In this document: in pieces, positions 12,092-33,269 of the stretch
Position numbering within the stretch: position 1 is the first letter of the stretch
Layout of the letters: every line of letters begins with the position of its first letter
Source: a virus
Direction: 5' to 3' (one strand)
DNA: 34,134 nt
Virus record (IMG/VR): IMGVR_UViG_3300043540_000164
Location: 1-34,134 of that record
Made by a program: the position numbers and the translations under genes
The notes under the pieces: model-generated
The model's input: the letters and a program-made list of their open reading frames with translations, nothing else
The model's database searches: none
Told to the model about the DNA's origin: nothing

Positions 12092-12142
12092 GATGCTCAC
12101 CGTGTAGAGGTTCTAACAGACCGTGACTTCGGGCCTCGTCAG

Positions 12143-12179
12143 CAGGGGCAGTACCCCTGGACCGCGCGCATGGCGCGGT
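12143..12179 (-). promoter_or_regulatory. Tandem leader hairpins
   Basis: Two perfect stems lie 52-90 bases before the gene at 12091: CAGGGG (12143-12148) with CCCCTG (12154-12159), and ACCGCGC (12161-12167) with GCGCGGT (12173-12179). They directly follow a 19-codon mini-ORF. The arrangement of mini-ORF, hairpins and gene resembles an attenuator, though no U-run follows in the minus direction. Confidence 0.4.
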
Positions 12180-12187
12180 TTCGGCCT

Positions 12188-12247
12188 TTAGACAATTAAC
12201 TCTAAGCTGCCCTGTACCGTCTGTCCCTTATGGAACTTCGGGATCAT
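12188..12247 (-). CDS. Possible 19-residue leader peptide
   Basis: An ATG at the exact end of the 157-bp leader repeat, preceded by GGGAGACGAG, opens a frame MIPKFHKGQTVQGSLELIV that ends at TAA. In the second copy of the repeat the same ATG starts the 70-residue gene at 32900. This may therefore be a genuine leader peptide or the stump of a lost gene. Confidence 0.4.
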   Translation of the reverse strand: MIPKFHKGQTVQGSLELIV

Positions 12248-12400
12248 CTCTCGTCTCCCGCTTCACCCGGCCCGTTTGCCGGTAAACCCAACCTAAGCCT
12301 TAGTTGCTCAAAAGCCAAATATGAAATTTAGGTGGTGCGCAACTAATTTTCAGCTACCTGTTACCACGCAGCCATGGCCCCAGAAGAATCCGGGCCTGCC
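12244..12400 (-). repeat. 157-bp leader repeat, copy 1
   Basis: Read on the minus strand this segment matches 32747-32903 on the plus strand with about 13 mismatches and no gaps (about 92% identity by eye). It contains a TAGTTGC/GCAACTA inverted pair (12301-12307, 12339-12345) around CCTAAATTT-ATATTTGG, then a CTAAG-G-CTTAG pair, then a CCGGC/GCCGG hairpin, a GGGAGA ribosome site and an ATG. It begins inside the 3' end of the 48-residue gene at 12354-12500. It behaves like a portable 5' leader. Confidence 0.85.
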
Positions 12401-12500
12401 CTGGATCTTTAGTCAGCCGCCATGCTCTGATGGTGAGCCCCAGGGGCACCCCTGGCAGCGCGCGCCAGAACAGCACGAAGTTGGTCTCTTTGTAACCCAC
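12354..12500 (-). CDS. 48-residue basic microprotein
   Basis: A GTG start has a perfect GGAGG (12508-12512) seven bases upstream and lies 15 bases after the previous stop. The product, MGYKETNFVLFWRALPGVPL then GLTIRAWRLTKDPGQARILL then GPWLRGNR, is basic and Trp/Leu-rich and could associate with membranes. The last 15 codons lie inside the 157-bp repeat. In copy 2 the same frame keeps the C-terminal residues but has a TAG just upstream, so only a remnant survives there. Confidence 0.5.
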   Translation of the reverse strand: MGYKETNFVLFWRALPGVPLGLTIRAWRLTKDPGQARILLGPWLRGNR

Positions 12501-12515
12501 AGTCAACCCTCCTTC

Positions 12516-12794
12516 TTAAAGGCAATAAGCCCAACACGACAGACTACCAAAGTTGTTAAAGTGCTTCTCCGGGGACCACTCCTTTCCGTAAATAGTTTCT
12601 GGTACATCAGGATGATCTCGATACCGACCTACTAACTGATCTCCATCTATTTTTATTAACAACTCCGGGGTTTCCGAGTCGCACGTCAAAAACAAACCTT
12701 CTGGGGTTTCAGTAATCCCGTCCGGGGAACCAGACAGCGGGTCGGCGTCGTCTGTGCCCTCCAGGCACAACTTCTTGAGTTCTTCGTAAGTCAT
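12516..12794 (-). CDS. Hypothetical acidic protein, 92 residues
   Basis: The ATG has AAGG about eight bases upstream. The product starts with a helix (MTYEELKKLCLEG), then an acidic Asp/Gly/Pro segment, then strands (GLFLTCDSETPELLIKIDGD) and ends HFNNFGSLSCWAYCL. The base composition is more AT-rich than its neighbours. A diverged copy of the leader repeat lies directly upstream (12812-12881). No family recognised. Confidence 0.6.
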   Translation of the reverse strand: MTYEELKKLCLEGTDDADPLSGSPDGITETPEGLFLTCDSETPELLIKIDGDQLVGRYRDHPDVPETIYGKEWSPEKHFNNFGSLSCWAYCL

Positions 12795-12811: not shown

Positions 12812-12881
12812 GAATCGCCGGCGTGCCCCGCCGGTAAACCCATTAAGCGCTTGTTGCGTTGAAATTGTCCGGCGCGGCAAC
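12812..12881 (-). repeat. Diverged leader repeat, third copy
   Basis: Read on the minus strand, it has GCAAC-AAGCGCTTAATGGGTTTACCGGC followed by a GCCGG hairpin arm, the same order as the 157-bp leader (GCAACTAAGGCTTAGGTTGGGTTTACCGGC). A GTTGC/GCAAC pair (12853-12857, 12877-12881) stands where the longer copies have their stem. It also ends just before a small gene. Confidence 0.55.
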
Positions 12882-12924
12882 GCCGGGAGTTGCTTGGAGC
12901 GGAGGCCGCAGCCCCCGCTCCCCA

Positions 12925-13110
12925 TTATTGTGGGCGACCCGAGTACAATCGGGTCGCTTCCTCGAGGGCTGCGGTCAGCTCCTCGAGTGACAGCCCATGC
13001 TCCGCGCCGATGGCGCGGATCGCATCCCAGTCCGCTAGACCGGGATACGCAGCGGCGATGGCGCTCATGAGAGCGCCGACCGCCGCGTGAAAGGTCTCGG
13101 TATCCACCAC
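12925..13110 (-). CDS. Small acidic helical protein
   Basis: I choose a GTG at 13110 (or the adjacent GTG at 13107), with GGAAAGGGGGTGAT upstream; the longer frame starts with an unlikely basic leader. The 61 residues are almost entirely helical: TFHAAVGALMSAIAAAYPGL, then WDAIRAIGAEHGLSLEEL, then a final helix. A four-helix or DNA-mimic-like acidic protein is possible. Function unknown. Confidence 0.5.
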   Translation of the reverse strand: MVDTETFHAAVGALMSAIAAAYPGLADWDAIRAIGAEHGLSLEELTAALEEATRLYSGRPQ

Positions 13111-13410
13111 ATCACCCCCTTTCCTGCCGGTTTCGCCCTCGCTAAGACCCCTCACCTCCCCCGGCAGAAGGAGGCTAGTCCGGGTGTGGGCGCGACCCAC
13201 TTTGTCGGGCCCCCGCCGGGCCTGCTACGGTAGCGCGCCCTTTCGGGATGTCCTGTGCCGGCGGGCCACGGGACTGCGCCTTTGCACCGCTCGCGCTCTC
13301 ACCACGCGCGAGGTCGGGACTCCGCCAGACCGGCTTACGCTGCGGTGCGACCGCAGGCGGTACGGGGCCTGTTTTCGCGGCCGCCTCAGCGCCGCTCAAT
13401 GGAGTAAACT
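13111..13410. other. GC-rich spacer without a supported gene
   Basis: Frames are open on both strands because the segment is very GC-rich. The minus-strand frame (13175-13471) would give a Pro/Ala/Arg/Gly low-complexity protein without a Shine-Dalgarno, so I do not call it. A strong hairpin, CTGCGGT-GCG-ACCGCAG (13340-13356), is present. A structured leader RNA for the gene at 13110 is possible. Confidence 0.4.
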
Positions 13411-13464
13411 CATTAAACACGGGTTGCGTATAAAAACCAAACCTAAAATTTAGGCGCGCAACCC
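13385..13464 (-). repeat. Diverged leader repeat, fourth copy
   Basis: GGGTTGCG (13421-13428) and CGCAACCC (13457-13464) form a perfect 8-bp inverted pair, nested around the 13-base palindrome CCTAAA-A-TTTAGG (13442-13454). On the minus strand the order TTGCGC, CCTAAATTT, TTTGG, TTTT, CGCAAC, GTTTA, AGTTTAC follows that of the 157-bp leader, although overall identity is low. Confidence 0.5.
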
Positions 13465-13865
13465 ATATCAAATATAATAATTAGGTTTAGTTGGTCATCA
13501 AATGCGACCGCTACCGGGGTAGCTAAGAAGACGAAGTTATACTAACGTAAACTCTGTTGTTTGCTGTGCACTCTATAGTATATAGGTAGAACACCCAGAC
13601 CACTGTGCTGTTATTTTTGGTAACGGACATCCCAAGAACTCCACTTAGGGTGCCTAATAAGGGGGGTGTAAACCGTAAAAACGGTAGGTCAGATGGGAAC
13701 AGGCGTCTTGGCGCGAGTCACGCAGAGCGGAGACCACAATTGGGCGTCCACGCGACCGCCGTTCACCTGCTGGAGTCCATACCCTGCAACCGGCCTGCCA
13801 TCCCCTACCTGCCGATGTTATGTGCGCCACCACCGGCTGGGCTAATTGTAATTACAAACTCAAAC
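13465..13865. other. Intergenic region, no convincing gene
   Basis: No frame with a ribosome site and plausible composition is present. The left part is AT-rich (AATATAATAATTAGG). Short palindromes are CTATA-GTA-TATAG (13573-13585) and ACCGT-AAAA-ACGGT (13672-13685). A plus-strand promoter-like pair (TTGTTT near 13557 and TATATA at 13579) could drive a small RNA towards 13850, but this is speculative. Confidence 0.4.
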
Positions 13866-13994
13866 CTAACTCAGGCCGTCCTCACCATAATCCTGCCTAC
13901 TTCGGTTGTGCAGCAACCAACCCCAAAGAATTACCCCAGTGGATACAAACGCACCGACAACGTAGCCCATTAGGAAGATTACAAAGCCGTGCAT
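13866..13994 (-). CDS. 42-residue single-pass membrane protein
   Basis: The ATG at 13994 lies within the last codons of the DNA polymerase gene and has AAGGAGG at ideal spacing, also inside that gene. The product is MHGFVIFLMGYVVGAFVSTG, then VILWGWLLHNRSRQDYGEDG, then LS. Residues 4-29 form one transmembrane segment, followed by a polar, charged tail. The size suits a small phage membrane protein (a holin-like or membrane-anchoring role), but there is no other lysis gene nearby. Confidence 0.65.
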   Translation of the reverse strand: MHGFVIFLMGYVVGAFVSTGVILWGWLLHNRSRQDYGEDGLS

Positions 13995-16719: not shown

Positions 16720-17317
16720 TATGGTCGGCTCCGTCGTAAACTTCTTGTTCGTAACCCACGCGCCGGCGCATATAATCGTTGGCGCGCGTAACAATGAGGA
16801 GCAAGTCACTGTCCCCGAAACTAGCTTCAACCAACTGTGTGTTTAGCTTCATCACTTGTTCCCAGCAGCGTTGTACGATAGCCGCCGCGTAGCGGTTGCC
16901 CAGGTTACACTCGTGTAAACCGTGTTCCCACATCTCGATCATTTCGCACAGTTTGAACAGGGTTTTCGTCAAACCCCCCGGCCCGAGGATCTCCGGCATG
17001 TCAGCCACGGGTACCATAAACCGCTGCCCCATCTCCAGGCAAGCATGGTCGTCGATAGCGTTGACGGCTGTACGCAAAACCTCGTTACCCGCCTTAACAG
17101 GGTAGGGCAGGTCCCCCGTCACTACCTCGCCGATGTCGTGGAACATAGCATAAACGATCAAGTCCTGCGGGGCCTCGGGCCAAATGGCCAGCAGAATGCG
17201 GATGACCTGCCACGTGTGGCTAGCCACGTCTTGGGGCTTCAGCGTAGGCCACGTATGATACCGCTGGACGAGGCCCGCGCGCCGGGGGTCCAGGGTTTGG
17301 TAGTGAAACTCGCTCAT
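16712..17317 (-). CDS. HD-domain 5'-deoxynucleotidase-like protein (YfbR type)
   Basis: The ATG at 17317 makes an ATGA overlap with the upstream synthase stop and has GGAGG in front. The 201 residues contain the HD metal site: SHTWQ (H34), FHDIGE (H60, D61, E64) and a later Asp. LVQRYHTWPTLKPQDVASHT is the characteristic N-terminal block of YfbR-like dNMP phosphohydrolases. The enzyme would dephosphorylate deoxynucleoside monophosphates. In this setting it could remove dTMP so that a modified pyrimidine enters phage DNA, which is an inference from context. Confidence 0.78.
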   Translation of the reverse strand: MSEFHYQTLDPRRAGLVQRYHTWPTLKPQDVASHTWQVIRILLAIWPEAPQDLIVYAMFHDIGEVVTGDLPYPVKAGNEVLRTAVNAIDDHACLEMGQRFMVPVADMPEILGPGGLTKTLFKLCEMIEMWEHGLHECNLGNRYAAAIVQRCWEQVMKLNTQLVEASFGDSDLLLIVTRANDYMRRRVGYEQEVYDGADHNV

Positions 17318-19419
17318 TTCTTTCTCCTCCTCAACCACTCCTGGCAAGCCAATCGCCAGGGTGTGGACGTTATGGTGCTGGTGGTCAACAGCGCGCCTTC
17401 TAAATCACCCTGTTTGTACTGATGGTGGGCTAGTAGTGCCATCGCAACCGTGCTCAGCAAGAACGTGTTTTTACCTTGGAGTTGAACGCGAGTACCCACG
17501 TGCAACTGGTCCACCCAGTGAACTAAGTGCCTCAAGTCTACGTCAAACGTCGCCGGATTCTCCACCAGGGGGAAACTGGGTAGAGTGTAGCGCGGGTCGC
17601 TGACTACCTCGGCGAGCTGGTTTAGGGCTAGTATCTGCCGGGGGGTGTTGACCTCTTTATGGATTACAAATTCCAAACCCAAAAGCTTAGATTTCAAAGC
17701 CAATTTGTCGAGGTCCTTGATGTACGCGTGGTAGTCGTTGCTAAACTGGGTATAGACTCCGGCCGGATAGCTGCTCATACCAGCGACGTAGGCGTGCAAA
17801 AAGCCAAAGTGCACGGCGTTCGCGCCGTAACAGTTGTGCGCCAGGACCCCGTTGCCAACGAGGGCGGTGTGGTAGTCTTCAACCGTAAAGTCGTAGACGT
17901 CCTCCGGGGGCAACTCTCTTATCTCAACAATCTTGTGATTGGCCCTCATGCGGTTTTCTTGGTTTAGTCGCCTCATAAGTTCTGATTGTCGACGACGCTG
18001 CTCCGGGTCTGACCACCTAGAGGCCCGCCCCCTTCTCGCGGCCTCTCTTTTTTCCTCAGGTGAAACCACCTTAGCAGCTGCTTCTGAAGCCTTTTTTACC
18101 CTAGTTTTTCTTTCTTCGGGGGAAATTCCCTTCCAGTAATTTGTCATGGTTCTTTTGCTATGCTCTGTTTGTTTTTTGGTTAGAATAGCTCTTTCCTCTT
18201 CACACATATTTTTTATTGATACTTTCGCAGCCTTGCTAGCTATAGTCGCTCGGTCTCTCCTCTCCTCTTTACTTAGTGATAACATTCTAGCCCTCGCGTG
18301 TAACGCCATGTGCTCAGCTTGGGTGAGACGAATTAAGTTACTTTCTTTATCGTTGGTTACGTCCTCATCATCGTGATGTACGTGTATACCGTCCGGCTTA
18401 GGTCCCCGCAAAAACTCATCGTATGCTCTGTAAACAAACTGGGTATTATCGAACGAAGTGTTACCCAGTATGTTCTTCTTGATAATGGCTCGCCCTCCTT
18501 TCTGATCCACCCACGGAGCCCATATACGGTCCCCTACCCGCAAATCTCTGACAGGAATCTCAATCATTACTTTTCCAAGAATTGACGTAACACCCCGCCG
18601 GGTTTTCTTTTTGTAAAGTTTGTGGTCCCCAGTGAGTTTTAAAGTGCTTCCATCATCAAATATCAACTCTAATACGGGCTTTACACCCGTCTTCCAAGCA
18701 CGGGTACACCACTTAATGGCCATATCACCAGTTTTAGGGTCAACAGCATAAACAGGGAAACGTTTAAGTCCCAAATTAAAGCGATCCGTAAGACTTCGGA
18801 TAGACAGGTCTCCTTCCGGAGATTTAATTGAAGTATCTCCAGCTAGACACCCCATCAAAATGTCATTCGACCGGCAGCACACGGTCATATCGAGCACGCC
18901 GTTGCGCACCCTGAAATAAACGTGAGTGTTGCAAGGACGATCCCGCCAGTTGCCGCGAAGATCGTCCCAGCCCGTGCTGGACAGATCATCCCAACCCGCA
19001 TCCCACATCTGCAGAACAGCCTGCCGCGTCTCTGGGTCGCGTTTCAACATGTTTATAATCACGGGCAGCTGATCAAATCCCTGGGCATCGCGCCAGCGCG
19101 CGCCGTAGGCACCGTGTATACGTCCGTCCGCCTCCGCAAACCTCTCGCCAAAATTCTTCACGTAATGGTTTAGAAACGCGGCGTCGTCGCGCCCGGCCAA
19201 CATCCAAACCGCCTCGGCGAGATGGAAAAAAGGATTGGCGTCCCGTACTGCGCTATGGAGAACACATTCCCAAGAGTTCTCGTACACCGTGGCCACAGGC
19301 CCCGGCGCGGTCAGCGCCGGCCCGGCGCGTGTGTAGCGCAGCGTGCCCTGGTCGCCCAGGTAGCGCAGCCCTGCGGGTAGGGCCTCGGCCACGTTCCTTA
19401 CCTTAATGACGTGTGTCAT
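17314..19419 (-). CDS. Thymidylate synthase / dUMP hydroxymethylase-family enzyme, intein-containing precursor
   Basis: The precursor has 701 residues. The exteins (1-190 and 530-701) join into a 362-residue enzyme. Family marks are RPCNTHVYFR (nucleophile C163), CCRSNDILMG (181-190) continuing as CYGANAVHFGFL after splicing (nucleotide-binding), and a C-terminal folate and substrate region. The SND-x3-G-x-YGAN-x-VHF form is that of phage thymidylate-synthase homologues, including those proposed to make 5-hydroxymethyl-dUMP, rather than that of cellular ThyA (GLPFNIA). I therefore favour dUMP hydroxymethylase because of the hypermodification operon upstream, but thymidylate synthase cannot be excluded. 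GGAGG lies seven bases before the ATG. Confidence 0.85.
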   Translation of the reverse strand: MTHVIKVRNVAEALPAGLRYLGDQGTLRYTRAGPALTAPGPVATVYENSWECVLHSAVRDANPFFHLAEAVWMLAGRDDAAFLNHYVKNFGERFAEADGRIHGAYGARWRDAQGFDQLPVIINMLKRDPETRQAVLQMWDAGWDDLSSTGWDDLRGNWRDRPCNTHVYFRVRNGVLDMTVCCRSNDILMGCLAGDTSIKSPEGDLSIRSLTDRFNLGLKRFPVYAVDPKTGDMAIKWCTRAWKTGVKPVLELIFDDGSTLKLTGDHKLYKKKTRRGVTSILGKVMIEIPVRDLRVGDRIWAPWVDQKGGRAIIKKNILGNTSFDNTQFVYRAYDEFLRGPKPDGIHVHHDDEDVTNDKESNLIRLTQAEHMALHARARMLSLSKEERRDRATIASKAAKVSIKNMCEEERAILTKKQTEHSKRTMTNYWKGISPEERKTRVKKASEAAAKVVSPEEKREAARRGRASRWSDPEQRRRQSELMRRLNQENRMRANHKIVEIRELPPEDVYDFTVEDYHTALVGNGVLAHNCYGANAVHFGFLHAYVAGMSSYPAGVYTQFSNDYHAYIKDLDKLALKSKLLGLEFVIHKEVNTPRQILALNQLAEVVSDPRYTLPSFPLVENPATFDVDLRHLVHWVDQLHVGTRVQLQGKNTFLLSTVAMALLAHHQYKQGDLEGALLTTSTITSTPWRLACQEWLRRRKK
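17833..18849 (-). mobile_element. Intein with HNH homing endonuclease
   Basis: The 339-residue insertion begins C191 LAGDTSIKSPEGD (block A), has LKLTGDHKLY (block B with T and H), and ends VYDFTVEDYHTALVG and then NGVLAHN before Cys+1 (blocks F and G). All catalytic positions are present (Cys1, block B His, penultimate His, terminal Asn, Cys+1), so splicing is probably intact. The centre holds an HNH motif (HVHHDDEDVTNDKESN then LIRLTQAEHMALH), followed by Lys/Arg-rich repeats of the DNA-binding kind. The DNA is visibly more AT-rich than the exteins, a sign of transfer. It interrupts the enzyme exactly at G/C of the conserved RSND-x3-G-CYGAN motif. Confidence 0.92.
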
Positions 19420-20203: not shown

Positions 20204-20231
20204 ATCATACGCCCAAACCAGGGGAAGTATA
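20204..20231 (-). promoter_or_regulatory. Phage-type promoter before kinase paralogue
   Basis: On the minus strand: TATACT (20231-20226), a 16-base spacer with CCCC...GGG, and TATGAT (20209-20204). It shares the ACTTCCCC-N-GGGCG-x-AT-x-ATAGG pattern with the promoters at 23.7 and 30.1-30.4 kb. It overlaps the last codons of the PLP enzyme gene and would start transcripts into the 19.6-16 kb genes. Confidence 0.65.
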
Positions 20232-21128
20232 GGCCCGGTGGGCGTCAATCTTGGGCTCCGCGCCCACCAACCAAACTGCCGTTTTATCATCAGACCACTG
20301 GTCCAGGTAACCGGTCTCTGCCATCCAGTTGAAAATTTTGCCCTCATAAGTTGCGTGTAATTCAATGTTGTCAAACTTATACGGCATGCGGTCTCCGTAA
20401 ATGGCGTAGCCCGAGCGGTGGAGGCTGACGCTATTATCCCAAGCAAACCCCCAGTCGTTCTGAATACCCATGCGACGTAACCGATCCAACACCCAGTAGT
20501 CTTTCTCCGGCCCTATTCCAACAGTAACCAACCTCTTCACGTTCTTCCGCCCGTGCCAGACCAAGCCACAGATGATGCTGGTTAGCGAGTTGCCGCTGCC
20601 GAAGGGCACCACAAGGGTCTCAACTTGCTCCGGTAGATTGATCACCTGGGCCGCCCCTACGGCATGAAACGGCCGCAACTCATTATCGGCTTCTGTGGTT
20701 ATACCATAGGGTACCACGAAGTCCTCTTCGGTCTGCATCTTCTTGAGTGCGGACTGCAGCGCAGGATTATACCCCACCTTGGTTCGCGTGAACGTGGCTC
20801 CCAAAAGCCGGGCGATCTCCGTACTGGGGTGCCGGCTCGGTTCCGCCGCCGTTATGTGGTGACTGGGAAGGCCGTGGATACGGGCGAGGACGGCTGTCAT
20901 ACAGTGCTGGGGGCTTAGGGCACTGGCCGCAGTGAGAACCCGCCGGGCACTTATCCCCCGGTTCTCGAACAACCACCCGAGCTGGCGCAGTTTGCTTCCG
21001 TTCACACCCCCCGGCCCAAGAGGGGCGAACAGGTCTTCCCGCTTCAGCCATAGTCCCCTGTGGTTTTCCCAGGGGGTCAGGCGCTTGGCGGAGGCGCGGA
21101 ACTCGGCCGGGGAGGGGAGGGGAATCAT
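20205..21128 (-). CDS. PLP-dependent fold-type II enzyme (tryptophan synthase beta family)
   Basis: I start at the ATG at 21128, which overlaps the upstream stop (ATGA). Of 307 residues, LWLKREDLFAPLGPGGVNGS then KLRQLGWL contains the PLP-binding Lys in the position used by ACC deaminase / D-cysteine desulfhydrase-like enzymes. VPFGSGNSLTSIICGL is the glycine-rich phosphate-cradle loop. The family does beta- or gamma-eliminations, replacements and related amino-acid chemistry. As the last gene of a hypermodification operon it most likely rearranges or decarboxylates an amino-acid adduct on the thymine methyl group in DNA, as proposed for PLP enzymes of phages M6 and ViI. A catabolic role is less likely here. 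Confidence 0.82.
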   Translation of the reverse strand: MIPLPSPAEFRASAKRLTPWENHRGLWLKREDLFAPLGPGGVNGSKLRQLGWLFENRGISARRVLTAASALSPQHCMTAVLARIHGLPSHHITAAEPSRHPSTEIARLLGATFTRTKVGYNPALQSALKKMQTEEDFVVPYGITTEADNELRPFHAVGAAQVINLPEQVETLVVPFGSGNSLTSIICGLVWHGRKNVKRLVTVGIGPEKDYWVLDRLRRMGIQNDWGFAWDNSVSLHRSGYAIYGDRMPYKFDNIELHATYEGKIFNWMAETGYLDQWSDDKTAVWLVGAEPKIDAHRAYTSPGLGV

Positions 21129-22288
21129 GACCAGCACTCCCTGTCGAACGAATTGTCGAAGCACTCCCAGCGGCGGCTCATCATGATGGGTTTTCCGGTC
21201 TCGCGGAAGTGGTTCTGCTTTCGGGGGGTCAGGCCCGGATCATTCGGATTATCCTCCTGCCGCAAATGAATAGGAAGGCAATCCCTCCGCATCTGCCAAA
21301 ACTGGTTGGTCAACCAACCTTTGCCCCACTTCTCTTCTGCGTATTTGATGCGGTCGTGCATCATATCTGCGTAACAATTAGGGTAACGTCGGTTAGGGCG
21401 AAACCAACTCTTGAAAGTGCAAAAGGCACTCTCTATAGTGTGGTAGTGAACATGGCGGATGTCCACGTCTGGCACGTCCGCCATTCTTTCACGAGCCTCT
21501 ACCAGAAGTTGGGCAGCTTCCAAACTTAGCCACGCCACTTGCTCCGGCGCGTACTTCCCCTCGAACCTTGTACTAGTGTGCCAATCCAGATCATCTCGCC
21601 CCAACACCTTCGCCAACCCGTTGCGGTGGCTCTTGCTACCGTCCATATCGTCAAGGAACAGCGTAGGACACTCAATGTCCACTCCGACCAGACGTAGGTA
21701 CTCAGTGTAGCTGAAGGCACTGAGCCGGCCGAAGGTGAAAAACTTGCTTCTTATCTCTTTCCACAGAAGGTCGAAGGCCTCGGTAGGCCTTCGGCCCTCT
21801 GTAAATTGACGGAAGTACGCACTTTGATCCCCTTCTGTTAGCTTGCGGTAGCATTCTACCGAGCGCACGAAGTCCTTCTTGTGGTAACGGCGGTCGGTAT
21901 CAAAAAGCAACTTAGTATAGTGCTCGTCAAACCAGTCCTTCAGGGCCATACAAGTCAGCCGGCGAAAGTCTGGAAAAGCGCGGTAAATCTGGAAACTGGT
22001 GATGATGTTTTGGGTGTTGCCGTTAATGAACGCCAACCAGAGCATTTGTTCCGCGTCGAGTTTGAACGTCTCCTGCAACCACGGGAAAGCGAAGTAAACG
22101 CAGCCGGGGTGCGTGCGGTGAACTAGGTGGAACTCGTAAAAACGTAGAAATACCTCCCGCCGGTAGCGGGGGTGTCGGAAGTCTTGTCTTGACTCCAGGT
22201 TAGTTACCTCTTGCTCCTGGTGCATTTCGCACCACCGCGCGGCGTCAGGCTGTCCGGGGGAGGTCAGGTAGTTGAGGGGTCCAGTCAT
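21125..22288 (-). CDS. Probable amino acid:DNA transferase-like hypermodification protein
   Basis: The protein has 387 residues, with ATGA overlaps on both sides. It is mainly helical and rich in aromatic and charged residues: RREVFLRFYEFHLVHRTHPG, then MLWLAFINGNTQNIITSF, then SKFFTFGRLSAFSYTEYLR, and a C-terminal TIESAFCTFKSWFRPNRRYP. This pattern recalls the proteins called amino acid:DNA transferases (ADDT), which are linked to 5-hmdU kinases in phages. The activity would replace the phosphate on phospho-hmdU in DNA with an amino acid. The match is from memory and not certain, but the gene neighbourhood (kinase, helical protein, PLP enzyme) supports it strongly. Confidence 0.65.
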   Translation of the reverse strand: MTGPLNYLTSPGQPDAARWCEMHQEQEVTNLESRQDFRHPRYRREVFLRFYEFHLVHRTHPGCVYFAFPWLQETFKLDAEQMLWLAFINGNTQNIITSFQIYRAFPDFRRLTCMALKDWFDEHYTKLLFDTDRRYHKKDFVRSVECYRKLTEGDQSAYFRQFTEGRRPTEAFDLLWKEIRSKFFTFGRLSAFSYTEYLRLVGVDIECPTLFLDDMDGSKSHRNGLAKVLGRDDLDWHTSTRFEGKYAPEQVAWLSLEAAQLLVEARERMADVPDVDIRHVHYHTIESAFCTFKSWFRPNRRYPNCYADMMHDRIKYAEEKWGKGWLTNQFWQMRRDCLPIHLRQEDNPNDPGLTPRKQNHFRETGKPIMMSRRWECFDNSFDRECWS

Positions 22289-23732: not shown

Positions 23733-23755
23733 GGTGATTGCCTCCTGATCACCCT

Positions 23756-23783
23756 ATCATGCGCCCGTTTCCGGGGAAGTAAA
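23756..23783 (-). promoter_or_regulatory. Promoter of the hypermodification operon
   Basis: On the minus strand TTTACT (23783-23778), a 16-base spacer with CCCC...GGG, and CATGAT (23761-23756). It lies between the stop at 23785 and the ATG at 23732. It has the same layout as the promoters at 20.2, 30.15 and 30.36 kb. Confidence 0.7.
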
Positions 23784-23784
23784 G

Positions 23785-24003
23785 CTACCCCTTGGTCTGT
23801 TTGGTCTTCAATATCTGAGCTGCCTCAAACGCGAACTCAGGGTCACACATCAGTATCCGTGCCCACTCGTTAGCAGGAAGATTGGTGTTGATAACTATGG
23901 CCGGCGTAACACCCTCCGCCTTAACCACTATGTGAAGGTTTGCGCAACTATTGCAACGGAAGGCCTGAATAACTGTACCAGGTAGTAAGACGGCAGAGGG
24001 CAT
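23785..24003 (-). CDS. Hypothetical protein with CxxC, 72 residues
   Basis: The ATG at 24003 shares a base with the preceding stop (TGATG). The protein has VIQAFRCNSCANLHIVVKAE with one CxxC pair, then VTPAIVINTNLPANEWARIL, and an amphipathic C-terminal helix. A single CxxC is not enough for a zinc ribbon unless it dimerises. Located at the end of the methyltransferase transcript. Function unknown. Confidence 0.55.
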   Translation of the reverse strand: MPSAVLLPGTVIQAFRCNSCANLHIVVKAEGVTPAIVINTNLPANEWARILMCDPEFAFEAAQILKTKQTKG

Positions 24004-24967: not shown

Positions 24968-26473
24968 TCACAAATACGGATACGCCCTATCTGTCAGGCT
25001 ATCTACTATGGTCAGCTTCTGCCTTGCACGCGTTGCTCCAACATAAAACACGCGGGCTTCGCCGTCCTCGTTTCGCTCCATCTCGACGAAGCTGCGGCGG
25101 GCCATTTCTGTCATCAGGATCACCTCGTCTGCCTCCCCGCCCTTGCTGCCGTGGATAGTGCTTAACCTCACCCGGGCCTTGCCCGTCAGCCGCTCGCCCG
25201 CCCGCCGGGCCGCCAGCATGTATGATATCTCGTCCGGGGGAAGACGCGTCAGGGCGTCGTGCCAAATTGCGGTAGTAGTTAAGCCGAACTGATTTATTAA
25301 ATCAGTTAGGCTTAACTTTTCCTCCTCGCACTTCTTCAACTTTGCCTTTGCACCCCGCATCACTCCCTCGCCCGCCGTCATGTAGGAGTAGACCGCATTA
25401 GCGTCGTCAGCCGAAACGGAACCTCCGGACCGCAGCTTCTCCCAAGCCTGTACCGCGCGTAACACGGCCGGGCTCACCGCCGAGCGGCCCCCGAAGTCGT
25501 AAAGCACACCTCTACGCCTCAATTCGGGTTCTACCTGCTCCTGTAACACGTAGTTGTTTCGTGCCAACACCAGAATATCTTCACCGCTGAAATTGCACCC
25601 GCTGATGTCCAACTCACGTCCTACAGAGCCCTCCTCATCACGAGGCTCCCACGCCTTCGGCCTCCGGTGGGCTACCCGCCCTATAACGGCGTTGGCCACC
25701 CCCTGAACGGCGCGGGGCACCCGGTGGCTCCTCCCCAGAACCCTAACGCTACCCTGCATATTGACCAACGTATCCACGTCCGCCCCTGCCCAAACGTACA
25801 GAGCCTGGTCGTCGTCGCCAGCTATCACCACCCGCCGTGCTCCCTGCGCAAGCCGCCAGACCACCCGCCATTGGAGAATTGACAAATCTTGTGATTCGTC
25901 CACCAACAATACGTCCAGCGCCGGGGCGGTGTCCCGGACCAGCATCTCCTGAAGCATGCCCGTATAGTCCAGCAGGCCGTGCGCTGTCTTGTACGCCGCG
26001 TAGCAACGGCTCACGTGGTCCACCGTTCCCCAACTTAGCCTGTCGTCGTCCTCATCATACAACTGGCGTAACGGTACCCCCCGCATGCGTGCTAGGTTCT
26101 CCATAAACAACACACGGTCACCTACCTCGTAACCCGCGAAGGTTCCGTCATCACACCACGTACCTGTTACCCGAACACCCGCGTAATCACTAAAATCTCT
26201 CAAACGGTCGCGCTCCATAACGTCCTCCGGCCGCAACCCTAGCGTTCGGTAAGCTAGTGAGTGCAAAGTTCGGAAATGGGGGAAGTCAGAACGGGGCAGC
26301 TTGAACCGTTCCGCCGCGCGGCTGATCGCAGTCTCAGCCCCGCGCCGGGTGAACGTAACGAAACCAACCCTGTCCGGGGGGGTGCCACTTACCATCTCGT
26401 TGTCCACTATGTCCAACAGGGTCGTAGTCTTACCCGTGCCTGGAGGCCCCAGTATTATCTCAGGCTCCGCCAT
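24968..26473 (-). CDS. UvrD/Rep-like SF1 DNA helicase
   Basis: The 501-residue protein has the SF1A motifs in order: I GPPGTGKTTT (9-18), Ia FVTFTRRGA, II LLVDESQDL, III AGDDDQALYVWAGAD, V STIHGSKGGEADEVIL and VI RVFYVGATRARQKL. It is shorter than UvrD (about 720), with reduced 1B and 2B subdomains. It would unwind DNA in replication or repair and could assist a phage replisome that has no DnaB-type helicase in this window. The start overlaps the winged-helix gene by 14 bases. The methyltransferase gene follows after seven bases. Confidence 0.9.
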   Translation of the reverse strand: MAEPEIILGPPGTGKTTTLLDIVDNEMVSGTPPDRVGFVTFTRRGAETAISRAAERFKLPRSDFPHFRTLHSLAYRTLGLRPEDVMERDRLRDFSDYAGVRVTGTWCDDGTFAGYEVGDRVLFMENLARMRGVPLRQLYDEDDDRLSWGTVDHVSRCYAAYKTAHGLLDYTGMLQEMLVRDTAPALDVLLVDESQDLSILQWRVVWRLAQGARRVVIAGDDDQALYVWAGADVDTLVNMQGSVRVLGRSHRVPRAVQGVANAVIGRVAHRRPKAWEPRDEEGSVGRELDISGCNFSGEDILVLARNNYVLQEQVEPELRRRGVLYDFGGRSAVSPAVLRAVQAWEKLRSGGSVSADDANAVYSYMTAGEGVMRGAKAKLKKCEEEKLSLTDLINQFGLTTTAIWHDALTRLPPDEISYMLAARRAGERLTGKARVRLSTIHGSKGGEADEVILMTEMARRSFVEMERNEDGEARVFYVGATRARQKLTIVDSLTDRAYPYL

Positions 26474-30116: not shown

Positions 30117-30151
30117 ATCGGTATGTCCTGCTCCTGTTGTGCCCCAGATTT

Positions 30152-30179
30152 AGTATGCGCCCCATCGGGGGAAAGTAAA
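30152..30179 (-). promoter_or_regulatory. Phage-type promoter, leftward
   Basis: On the minus strand TTTACT (30179-30174), a 16-base spacer with CCCCC-GAT-GGGG, and CATACT (30157-30152). It drives the gene at 30116 and probably the replication series to 23.8 kb. Confidence 0.7.
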
Positions 30180-30354
30180 GCCCATAGGTTATGCGTTTTT
30201 GGGTTGGGAATAAAGGGTTAAAAATGGTTTTCCCAGCGACACTTATCCCGCGCCTATTAGATTATTGCTCCTCGCGGGGCCGCGCGGCCCGCGCTCGGGA
30301 CCGGCGAGCGCGCGTATTAGGCAAAAATCATAAACCGATAGGGTGCGGGTGGGC

Positions 30355-30382
30355 TTTACTTCCCCCCGATGGGGCGCATAAT
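30355..30382 (+). promoter_or_regulatory. Phage-type promoter, rightward
   Basis: TTTACT (30355-30360), a 16-base spacer with CCCCCC-GAT-GGGG, and CATAAT (30377-30382), followed by AGGGG and the AGGAGG of the gene at 30402. The spacer hairpin is shared with the leftward promoter. Confidence 0.75.
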
Positions 30383-30401
30383 AGGGGTTCAGGAGGTTGA
30401 C

Positions 30402-30731
30402 ATGACCGTATACGTTGACGATGTTCGCCACACCTTCGGCCGAACGGTTATGTGTCACATGTGGGCGGATAGTCTCGATGAACTCCTTAACATGGCTGTT
30501 CACCTGAATTTGAACCACAAGTGGTTACAAAAACCCCCGACAGCTTCCTGGGTGCATTTCGATATTAGCCTAGGTCTCAAGGTTAAGGCTATTGCCCAAG
30601 GTGCAGTGTTAACTGACAAGTATGGCCCAGTAGAACATCTGGCCTGTTTAGACATTAGCAGTGGTGATCCCGAGCGTGCGGAACGGGGTAAAAGAAAACT
30701 GGATCAAATTAAAAAGTGTAGGTCTCTGTAA
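30402..30731 (+). CDS. DUF4031 protein
   Basis: I choose the ATG at 30402 with AGGAGG at ideal spacing. The 109-residue protein begins MTVYVDDVRHTFGRTVMCHM then WADSLDELLNMA, followed by NHKWLQKPPTASWVHFDISL, the typical DUF4031 pattern (VYVDDxRxxFGRMxMCHMxAD, then KWFQ, then HYDI). DUF4031 proteins are short, widespread in phages and bacteria, and of unknown activity; conserved Asp, His and Cys residues hint at metal binding. First gene of the rightward unit. Confidence 0.82.
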   Translation: MTVYVDDVRHTFGRTVMCHMWADSLDELLNMAVHLNLNHKWLQKPPTASWVHFDISLGLKVKAIAQGAVLTDKYGPVEHLACLDISSGDPERAERGKRKLDQIKKCRSL

Positions 30732-30762
30732 GACCTAGTGACCTACACACTCAGATGAGGTG

Positions 30763-30768
30763 CATAAT
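30763..30768 (+). promoter_or_regulatory. -10-like CATAATAGGGGG element
   Basis: GATGAGGTGCATAATAGGGGGTTAAGGAGGTTAACATG repeats the -10, leader and ribosome-site arrangement of the gene at 30402 (CATAATAGGGGTTCAGGAGGTTGACATG). The -35 position holds ACCTAC, a poor match, so it is a weak promoter or only a conserved leader. Confidence 0.45.
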
Positions 30769-30788
30769 AGGGGGTTAAGGAGGTTAAC

Positions 30789-30989
30789 ATGAAACGAGAA
30801 CCAGCCAGCAATGAGGTTAAAAACCCGGGTCACTACGACCGCTGGACGTGTCCTGCTTGTTACGAAGACCTTCCGGTGAAAACCCCGGGAACCTACGTCT
30901 GTGCTTCATGCTCGTACACGATTGAGTGCTCGTTAGATAGAGAACCAGTATGCGTGTCCCGTTTGATTTACAAGGACGAAGTCGGTTGA
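30789..30989 (+). CDS. Zinc-ribbon microprotein
   Basis: The ATG has AAGGAGG at ideal spacing. The 66 residues contain RWTCPACYEDLPVKTPGTYV then CASCSYTI, two CxxC knuckles about 16 residues apart, a classic zinc ribbon. A further CSLDREPVCV pair follows. Small zinc ribbons of this type in phages often bind nucleic acid or a polymerase. It is translationally coupled to the SNF2 helicase gene, so a helicase accessory role is plausible. Confidence 0.72.
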   Translation: MKREPASNEVKNPGHYDRWTCPACYEDLPVKTPGTYVCASCSYTIECSLDREPVCVSRLIYKDEVG

Positions 30990-32702: not shown

Positions 32703-32783
32703 ATGGTAACAATATCAACACAAGACATAATGGTCGGAATAGCCGGGGCAGGCCCGGGTGCTTCTGGGGCCGTGGCTGTGTGA
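32703..32783 (+). CDS. Possible 26-residue ORF at the start of repeat copy 2
   Basis: ATG at 32703 with AGGGT upstream encodes MVTISTQDIMVGIAGAGPGA then SGAVAV. The last half lies inside the 157-bp repeat but in a different frame from the 48-residue gene of copy 1. Low coding evidence; it may be a chance frame. Confidence 0.25.
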   Translation: MVTISTQDIMVGIAGAGPGASGAVAV

Positions 32784-32903
32784 TAATAGGTAGCTGAAAA
32801 TTAATTGCGCATCACCTAAATTTCATATTTGGCTTTTGCGCAACTAGGGCTTAGGTTGGGTTTACCGACAAACGGGCCGGATGAAGCGGGAGACGAGAAA
32901 TGA
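32747..32903 (+). repeat. 157-bp leader repeat, copy 2
   Basis: This segment matches the reverse complement of 12244-12400 without gaps at about 92% by eye. TTGCGC (32805-32810) and GCGCAA (32838-32843) form its stem around CCTAAATTTCATATTTGG. The repeat ends exactly at the ATGA of the gene at 32900, giving it its ribosome site (GGGAGACGAG). Its first bases carry a remnant of the 48-residue gene of copy 1. Confidence 0.85.
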
Positions 32904-33112
32904 CCGACACAATCTTAGGTTATACATGGGAAGCTATCCAGCGCGCGCAACGTGGCGGGAAATTGAGCGATCCTGTCCCATTGGCTCCCGCGCCTATCGC
33001 TTGGGACGCCAGCGATGACGATTTGCTTGCCAAGTATCCTACGGCCGCGCAACTGGAAGCGGCCGGTTTTTACGGCGTGGCGGATCGCGCTAAACGCCTC
33101 GGGAAGCTCTGA
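32900..33112 (+). CDS. Small hypothetical protein expressed from repeat leader
   Basis: The 70-residue protein starts at the ATG that closes the 157-bp repeat, with GGGAGA upstream. It begins MTDTILGYTWEAIQRAQRGG, continues with a Pro/Ala-rich link, and ends in two helices (DDDLLAKYPTAAQLEAAGFY, then GVADRAKRLGKL). No family recognised. It is the last plus-strand gene before the structural module. Confidence 0.62.
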   Translation: MTDTILGYTWEAIQRAQRGGKLSDPVPLAPAPIAWDASDDDLLAKYPTAAQLEAAGFYGVADRAKRLGKL

Positions 33113-33135: not shown

Positions 33136-33161
33136 CGGTGCGGGTAGGCTTTACTTCCCCC
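33136..33161 (+). repeat. Promoter remnant (26-bp repeat of the 30.34-kb promoter)
   Basis: The 26 bases match 30341-30366 except for one position and include the -35 TTTACT and the C-run. The -10 half is replaced by a G-run, so it is a half-promoter or a recombination scar. Between 33113 and 33269 nothing else is recognisable. Confidence 0.6.
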
Positions 33162-33269
33162 CGTAAGCCGGGGGGGTGGGGGTGCACCATCGCTTCGTCC
33201 CGCGCGACATGTCCCACTATCCGGGCGCGAGGCTATACGAGATTCGGAAGACGCACAGATGAAAACCCA

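Follow-up and report, generated by a model that had tools for sequence, protein, structure and literature searches.

The virus sequence analysed here over its full 34,134 bases (the window) carries a 157-nt element in two copies, A1 and A2, each running up to the start codon of a different small gene, together with two shorter and diverged relatives of its core, B and C. We hold with moderate confidence that the four belong to one small family within this genome, whose structured elements act in cis, as leaders or between cistrons.

A repeat ending at two unrelated start codons

Self-BLAST of the window returned A1 and A2 as by far the strongest repeat of the record (E=1.9e-60). In line with the initial annotation, the copies are inverted with respect to each other and align without gaps, with 144/157 positions identical and a longest exact run of 26 nt; 11 of the 13 differences are transitions. 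The inverted arms can be followed for 166 nt (12244-12409 and 32738-32903, 90% identity), the similarity being weaker beyond 157 nt. Both copies terminate in ...GGGAGACGAGARATGA, at a ribosome site and ATGA, and the sequences downstream of the ATG are unrelated, as had also been reported. The nested inverted pairs described previously are likewise present, in the form of a hairpin at 12299-12346 with an inner hairpin. Minimum-energy folds of the whole copies are modestly better than those of shuffled sequences (z of -1.75 and -0.80). The 8% divergence between A1 and A2 rules out an assembly duplicate. A template/variable pair of a diversity-generating retroelement was also rejected: the differences are mostly transitions, occur in both directions and are not adenine-directed, and A1 and A2 precede genes rather than ending one.

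The record encodes terminase, portal, polymerase, helicase, primase, thymidylate synthase and dCTP deaminase genes. Genes run leftward from ~30.1 kb down to 2.3 kb, and a short rightward row extends from 30.4 to 33.1 kb. Leftward of the DNA polymerase gene, the order is B, a small gene (~12925-13107), C, the 92-aa gene, A1, the 19-codon ORF, a hammerhead candidate and a 205/208-aa gene. B is located in the first large spacer leftward of the polymerase gene, and the two spacers that follow it in this leftward row hold C and A1. A2 belongs to the rightward row, where it comes after the helicase gene. In both rows the orientation of the elements is that of transcription, and in A1, A2 and C the end of the core is separated from the start codon by ~30 nt. 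The 70-aa gene behind A2 is probably real, since a relative of its predicted product (52%) is encoded by Achromobacter phage Mano.

Several other features of the window were recorded. Between B and a small membrane-protein-like ORF (~13866-13994), ~400 nt at 13470-13860 (-) are without a leftward ORF and partly AT-rich, a possible control region or origin. At 17314-19419 (-), an intein that contains an HNH nuclease domain splits the thymidylate synthase gene (Pfam Intein_splicing, 4e-12), and a gene at 20205-21164 (-) resembles those of pyridoxal-phosphate enzymes (PALP, 22 bits, below the cut-off). Two genes, one for a helicase and one of PHROG-3271, contain near-perfect palindromes of ~40 nt, at 25277-25317 and 21763-21802.

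Table 1 Positions of the repeat copies, their cores and neighbouring features in the window.
Feature	Position	Strand	Details
Element copy A1	12244..12400	(-)	157 nt; 3′ end is the ATG of the 19-codon ORF
Element copy A2	32747..32903	(+)	157 nt; 3′ end is the ATG of the 70-aa gene
Core of A1	12269..12346	(-)	hairpin P1, then directly hairpin P2
Core of A2	32801..32878	(+)	hairpins P1 and P2 as in A1; one P1 mismatch
B, very likely diverged core copy	13394..13465	(-)	sequence model, structured model, paired stem changes
C, likely diverged partial core copy, leader of 92-aa gene	12825..12884	(-)	BLAST, local alignment; shared GCAAC..GCUUAAUGGGUUUACCGG
19-codon ORF behind A1	12188..12247	(-)	MIPKFHKGQTVQGSLELIV; from sequence
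70-aa gene behind A2	32900..33112	(+)	homologue: hypothetical protein, Achromobacter phage Mano, 52%
92-aa gene behind C	12516..12794	(-)	no Pfam or PHROG match
Candidate type II hammerhead ribozyme	12127..12186	(-)	RF02276; 5′ of 205/208-aa gene; predicted cut between 12160 and 12159
Promoter-like repeat GGCTTTACTTCCCCCCGATGGGGCGCATAATAGGG	30342-30402, 30151-30184, 23741-23785, 33137-33163	(+), (-), (-), (+)	TTTACT-16-CATAAT, inverted repeat in spacer
Second re-used leader	30368-30405 and 30754-30792	(+)	39 nt, 87% identity; -10-like site and ribosome site

Diverged cores and predicted hairpins

The shared core consists of a GUUGC/GCAAC hairpin (P1), followed without a spacer by a second hairpin (P2) with GUUUAC near its tip. 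The predicted P1 stem of A1 pairs UUAGUUGC with GCAACUAA and contains an inner CUAAAU/AUUUGG, while its P2 is predicted as GGCUU-AG-GUUGG-GUUUA-CCGGC-AAAC-GGGCC. The corresponding P1 stems are UUAAUUGC/GCAACUAG in A2, with the one mismatch, and UGGGUUGC/GCAACCCG in B; the inner hairpin, CUAAAU/AUUUGG or similar, is common to A1, A2 and B. In C, P1 is reduced to GUUGC/GCAAC, and this copy folds differently on its own. More generally, single-sequence folds agree only partly with the model of two adjacent stem-loops. Two possible ORFs end shortly before P1: one of 48 aa with a good ribosome site (12354-12500, (-)), the end of which overlaps the first ~47 nt of A1, and one of 26 aa in another frame (32703-32783, (+)), which ends in the 5′ part of A2.

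B and C, two diverged relatives of the ~75-nt core, had been missed by the initial annotation. When the window was searched with a sequence-only model built from A1 and A2, a third place was found at 13405-13467 (-) with E=0.0039, corresponding to B, as well as a weak match at 12828-12860 (-), corresponding to C. With a structured model built from nothing but A1 and A2, the match to B improved to E=8.5e-4 (versus 3.9e-3 with sequence alone); C was not found by this model (E about 8). By BLAST, C matches A2 with E=0.010-0.014, and B matches C at 0.08-0.12. In the masked window, both strands included, C is the best local alignment with a score of 32, compared with a best of 31 and a median of 24 for 60 dinucleotide shuffles, and the score of 28-29 obtained for B is equalled by only the top few of the 60 shuffles. 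A1, B and C lie on the same strand, with B and C within 1.2 kb of A1, and are aligned in register. We conclude that B is very likely a copy of the core and that C, judged by sequence similarity, is likely one. No start codon or ribosome site follows closely behind B.

Comparison of B with the A copies reveals two P1 pairs, U-A to G-C and A-U to G-C, in which both sides have changed and pairing is kept. In a control with the partners slid by +1 column, pairing fell to 44% from 88%, while the double-change counts were similar, so the P1 covariation is suggestive rather than proof. It is thin, comprising four copies and resting on the one diverged copy B; between A1 and A2 alone, compensation is within chance.

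A neighbouring ribozyme candidate, outside searches and described systems

Two bases past the stop codon of the 19-codon ORF begins a match to the type II hammerhead family RF02276 (12127-12186, (-)). It scores 30.7 bits, below the gathering threshold of 37, with E=4e-6 in a single-family search of the record and 0.017 against all of Rfam. The catalytic core letters CUGACGA, CGAAAC and GGUC are present (pattern CUGANGA ... GAAA, A-U closing stem III, H at the cut), and the minimum-energy fold has the expected three-stem form, with stems I and III loop-closed and stem II open. On this modelled fold and family match, it is likely a type II hammerhead ribozyme. Bacteria commonly carry type II hammerheads, and phage intergenic regions are among the places where hammerheads occur (PMC3088659). 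A second hammerhead, as for a circular RNA, was looked for and rejected: the other CTGANGA sites are not in a hammerhead setting by eye, and permissive Rfam searches gave only the one match. It is the sole hammerhead found in the record, and none was found in 18 related records. The candidate lies downstream of A1 on the same presumed transcript but is a separate element, its core being absent from A1, A2, B and C. Self-cleavage would split A1 and the small ORF from the 205/208-aa cistron.

Outside the record, no copy of the element was found in 50,697 phages, in IMG/VR (five patterns) or in the 18 related records (searched as DNA or with models). One pattern searched against GTDB genomes matched only in three Methylomonas species, none of them a true copy; these share one and the same membrane-protein reading frame and were therefore counted as a single chance match in coding DNA. 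The Achromobacter phage Mano locus encoding the 70-aa homologue has no BLAST similarity to the element. No Rfam 15 family matches it at gathering or permissive thresholds, purD and other matches being at chance level, and a tRNA/tmRNA scan found none. The initial annotation had named the lack of further copies in related genomes, together with the lack of a transcript, as what would count against its reading. None was indeed found elsewhere, but the nearest IMG/VR relatives are only ~35-49% identical in helicase or polymerase protein, so their lack of the element says little, and the collections searched contained no relative close enough for covariation. As exact-pattern scans miss diverged forms, near-identical copies are rare, but uniqueness of the fold does not follow. 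Long repeats in the related records are mostly direct, in addition to 26-30-nt inverted pairs ~1.1 kb apart, and are unlike A1/A2. Such inverted pairs, seen in relatives G002, G005 and G007, are perhaps divergent promoters like those of the window at 30.15/30.38 kb.

Among described systems, the nearest analogues are the start-associated repeats (SAS/ESAS) of actinobacteriophages, which remain unexplained in function (PMC3203893, PMC7302621, PMC12699233). SAS is a 13-bp motif of which 11-19 copies are present, accompanied by an imperfect inverted repeat of 17 bp (PMC3203893, PMC7302621). As with SAS/ESAS, the element is repeated within one phage genome directly upstream of the start codons of unrelated small genes (A1, A2 and C; not B), with an inverted repeat, here the P1 stem, upstream of the ribosome site. 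Unlike SAS, it comprises two copies of 157 nt and two diverged cores of 60-75 nt, and its sequence is unrelated: the 13-bp motif of the GGGATAGGAGCCC type has a single match in the window, with 2 mismatches (20957, (-)), and none at the element start codons.

Competing explanations and a proposed role

We favour a family of structured leaders because the repeat ends at the start codon in A1 and A2 while the downstream sequence differs, because the elements follow the direction of transcription in either row, because B and C fill the two spacers upstream of that of A1 on the same strand and in register, because the structured A1 and A2 model improves B, because P1 pairing in B is kept by double-sided changes, and because the phage re-uses another leader (30368-30405, 30754-30792). 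Both copies of this second leader (GCATAATAGGGG...AGGAGGTTRACATG, at 30368 and 30754) end at the ATG of different genes. Counted against the family are the lack of a homologue outside this genome in the collections searched and of an Rfam match, the weak folding z-scores, the absence of a start codon near B, the partial P1 and different fold of C, covariation drawn from one diverged copy, and A1/A2 compensation at chance level. The earlier suggestion of a portable expression leader, perhaps an RNA regulator, is strengthened by the orientation, by the ~30-nt distance to the start in A1, A2 and C, by the diverged cores in two neighbouring spacers and by the compensated stem of B; it is weakened in that no promoter was recognised inside the element and covariation across the four copies is thin.

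The main rival, which we consider unlikely, is control at the level of DNA, whereby the P1 inverted repeat would serve middle or late genes as an operator or as a promoter component, and the leader would travel as promoter plus ribosome site. Because P1, inner repeat included, comes close to self-complementarity, the opposite strand scores as well, the sequence-only A1 and A2 model also matching the opposite strand of this near-palindromic stem. B is preceded by a sigma-70-like site whose end, at 13474, is ~8 nt from P1, and A2 holds TGTGATAAT ~14 nt before P1. Promoter-like repeats are moreover re-used elsewhere in the phage (30342-30402, 30151-30184, 23741-23785, 33137-33163): GGTGCGGGTRGGCTTTACTTCCCCCCG occurs at 30342 and 33137, the latter copy being without the second half, and related forms at 30184 and 23785 (-), with a divergent pair at 30.15/30.38 kb. 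However, a promoter scan found no promoter-like site in A1, A2 or C, A1 is without the ATAAT of A2, and neither the sigma-70-like site nor TGTGATAAT is seen in A1 or C. Furthermore, conservation extends to P2, which as DNA is no palindrome, and the stem letters change while pairing stays.

Passive duplication, by which the repeat would have arisen fairly recently through the copying of a spacer (or recombination between phages) and would serve as an ordinary ribosome site only, appears improbable. It would fit the 8% divergence, mostly transitions, the comparison of A1 with A2, which is without clear conservation of structure, and the absence of copies elsewhere, but a single passive copy does not predict diverged cores in neighbouring spacers or conservation confined to the core.

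Antitermination offers a further precedent. HK022 put acts on the zinc-binding domain of the RNA polymerase beta′ subunit. It is ~70 nt long with two stem-loops, and its two copies are located downstream of PL and PR (PMC9378689). If P1 and P2 form as predicted, the elements would resemble put in the ~70-nt size, in the two adjacent hairpins and in the presence of copies in oppositely directed transcripts (the leftward and rightward rows), and a promoter-like site adjoins B. An RNA of this kind, acting on RNA polymerase from opposite transcripts, nevertheless seems to us decidedly improbable: the elements lie deep in the gene rows, right before start codons, where put follows early promoters, and few terminators are apparent. 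The element model applied to HK022 24000-36000, a 12-kb segment in which the position of put was not independently marked, found no sequence match (best 6.5 bits, E=2.1). Finally, inversion of the 20 kb between A1 and A2, also raised by the initial annotation, is possible given inverted arms of 157 nt at 92% identity, yet most improbable, as the longest exact run is 26 nt, genes from ~2.3 to 30.1 kb all point in the same direction, as expected without inversion, nothing in the gene order points to a past inversion, and B and C would have no part in such an event.

If A1, A2, B and C are indeed structured leaders, the element would act as an RNA, with a functional core of ~75 nt in which the GUUGC/GCAAC stem of P1 closes a large loop adjacent to P2 with GUUUAC at its tip. 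After transcription, P1 and P2 would fold in the spacer, keeping the cistron ahead of it apart from the start site behind it and leaving the purine-rich ribosome site single-stranded beside them. In this manner the hairpins may set the translation and/or the stability of the downstream message. All 157 nt, from the 5′ hairpins through the core to the ribosome site and ATG, would once have been duplicated as a unit to a further start codon, located on the opposite strand, and retained there. A more far-reaching version, which we regard as rather improbable, is a new class of phage RNA leader, a P1-P2 double hairpin that fills successive spacers and partitions the polycistronic transcript together with the hammerhead ribozyme.

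A long, structured start-codon repeat in a phage unrelated to actinobacteriophages, situated beside a candidate self-cleaving ribozyme, would provide a compact place in which to test RNA action. The A1/A2 family would also help to address how control leaders come to be re-used in phages to serve new genes.
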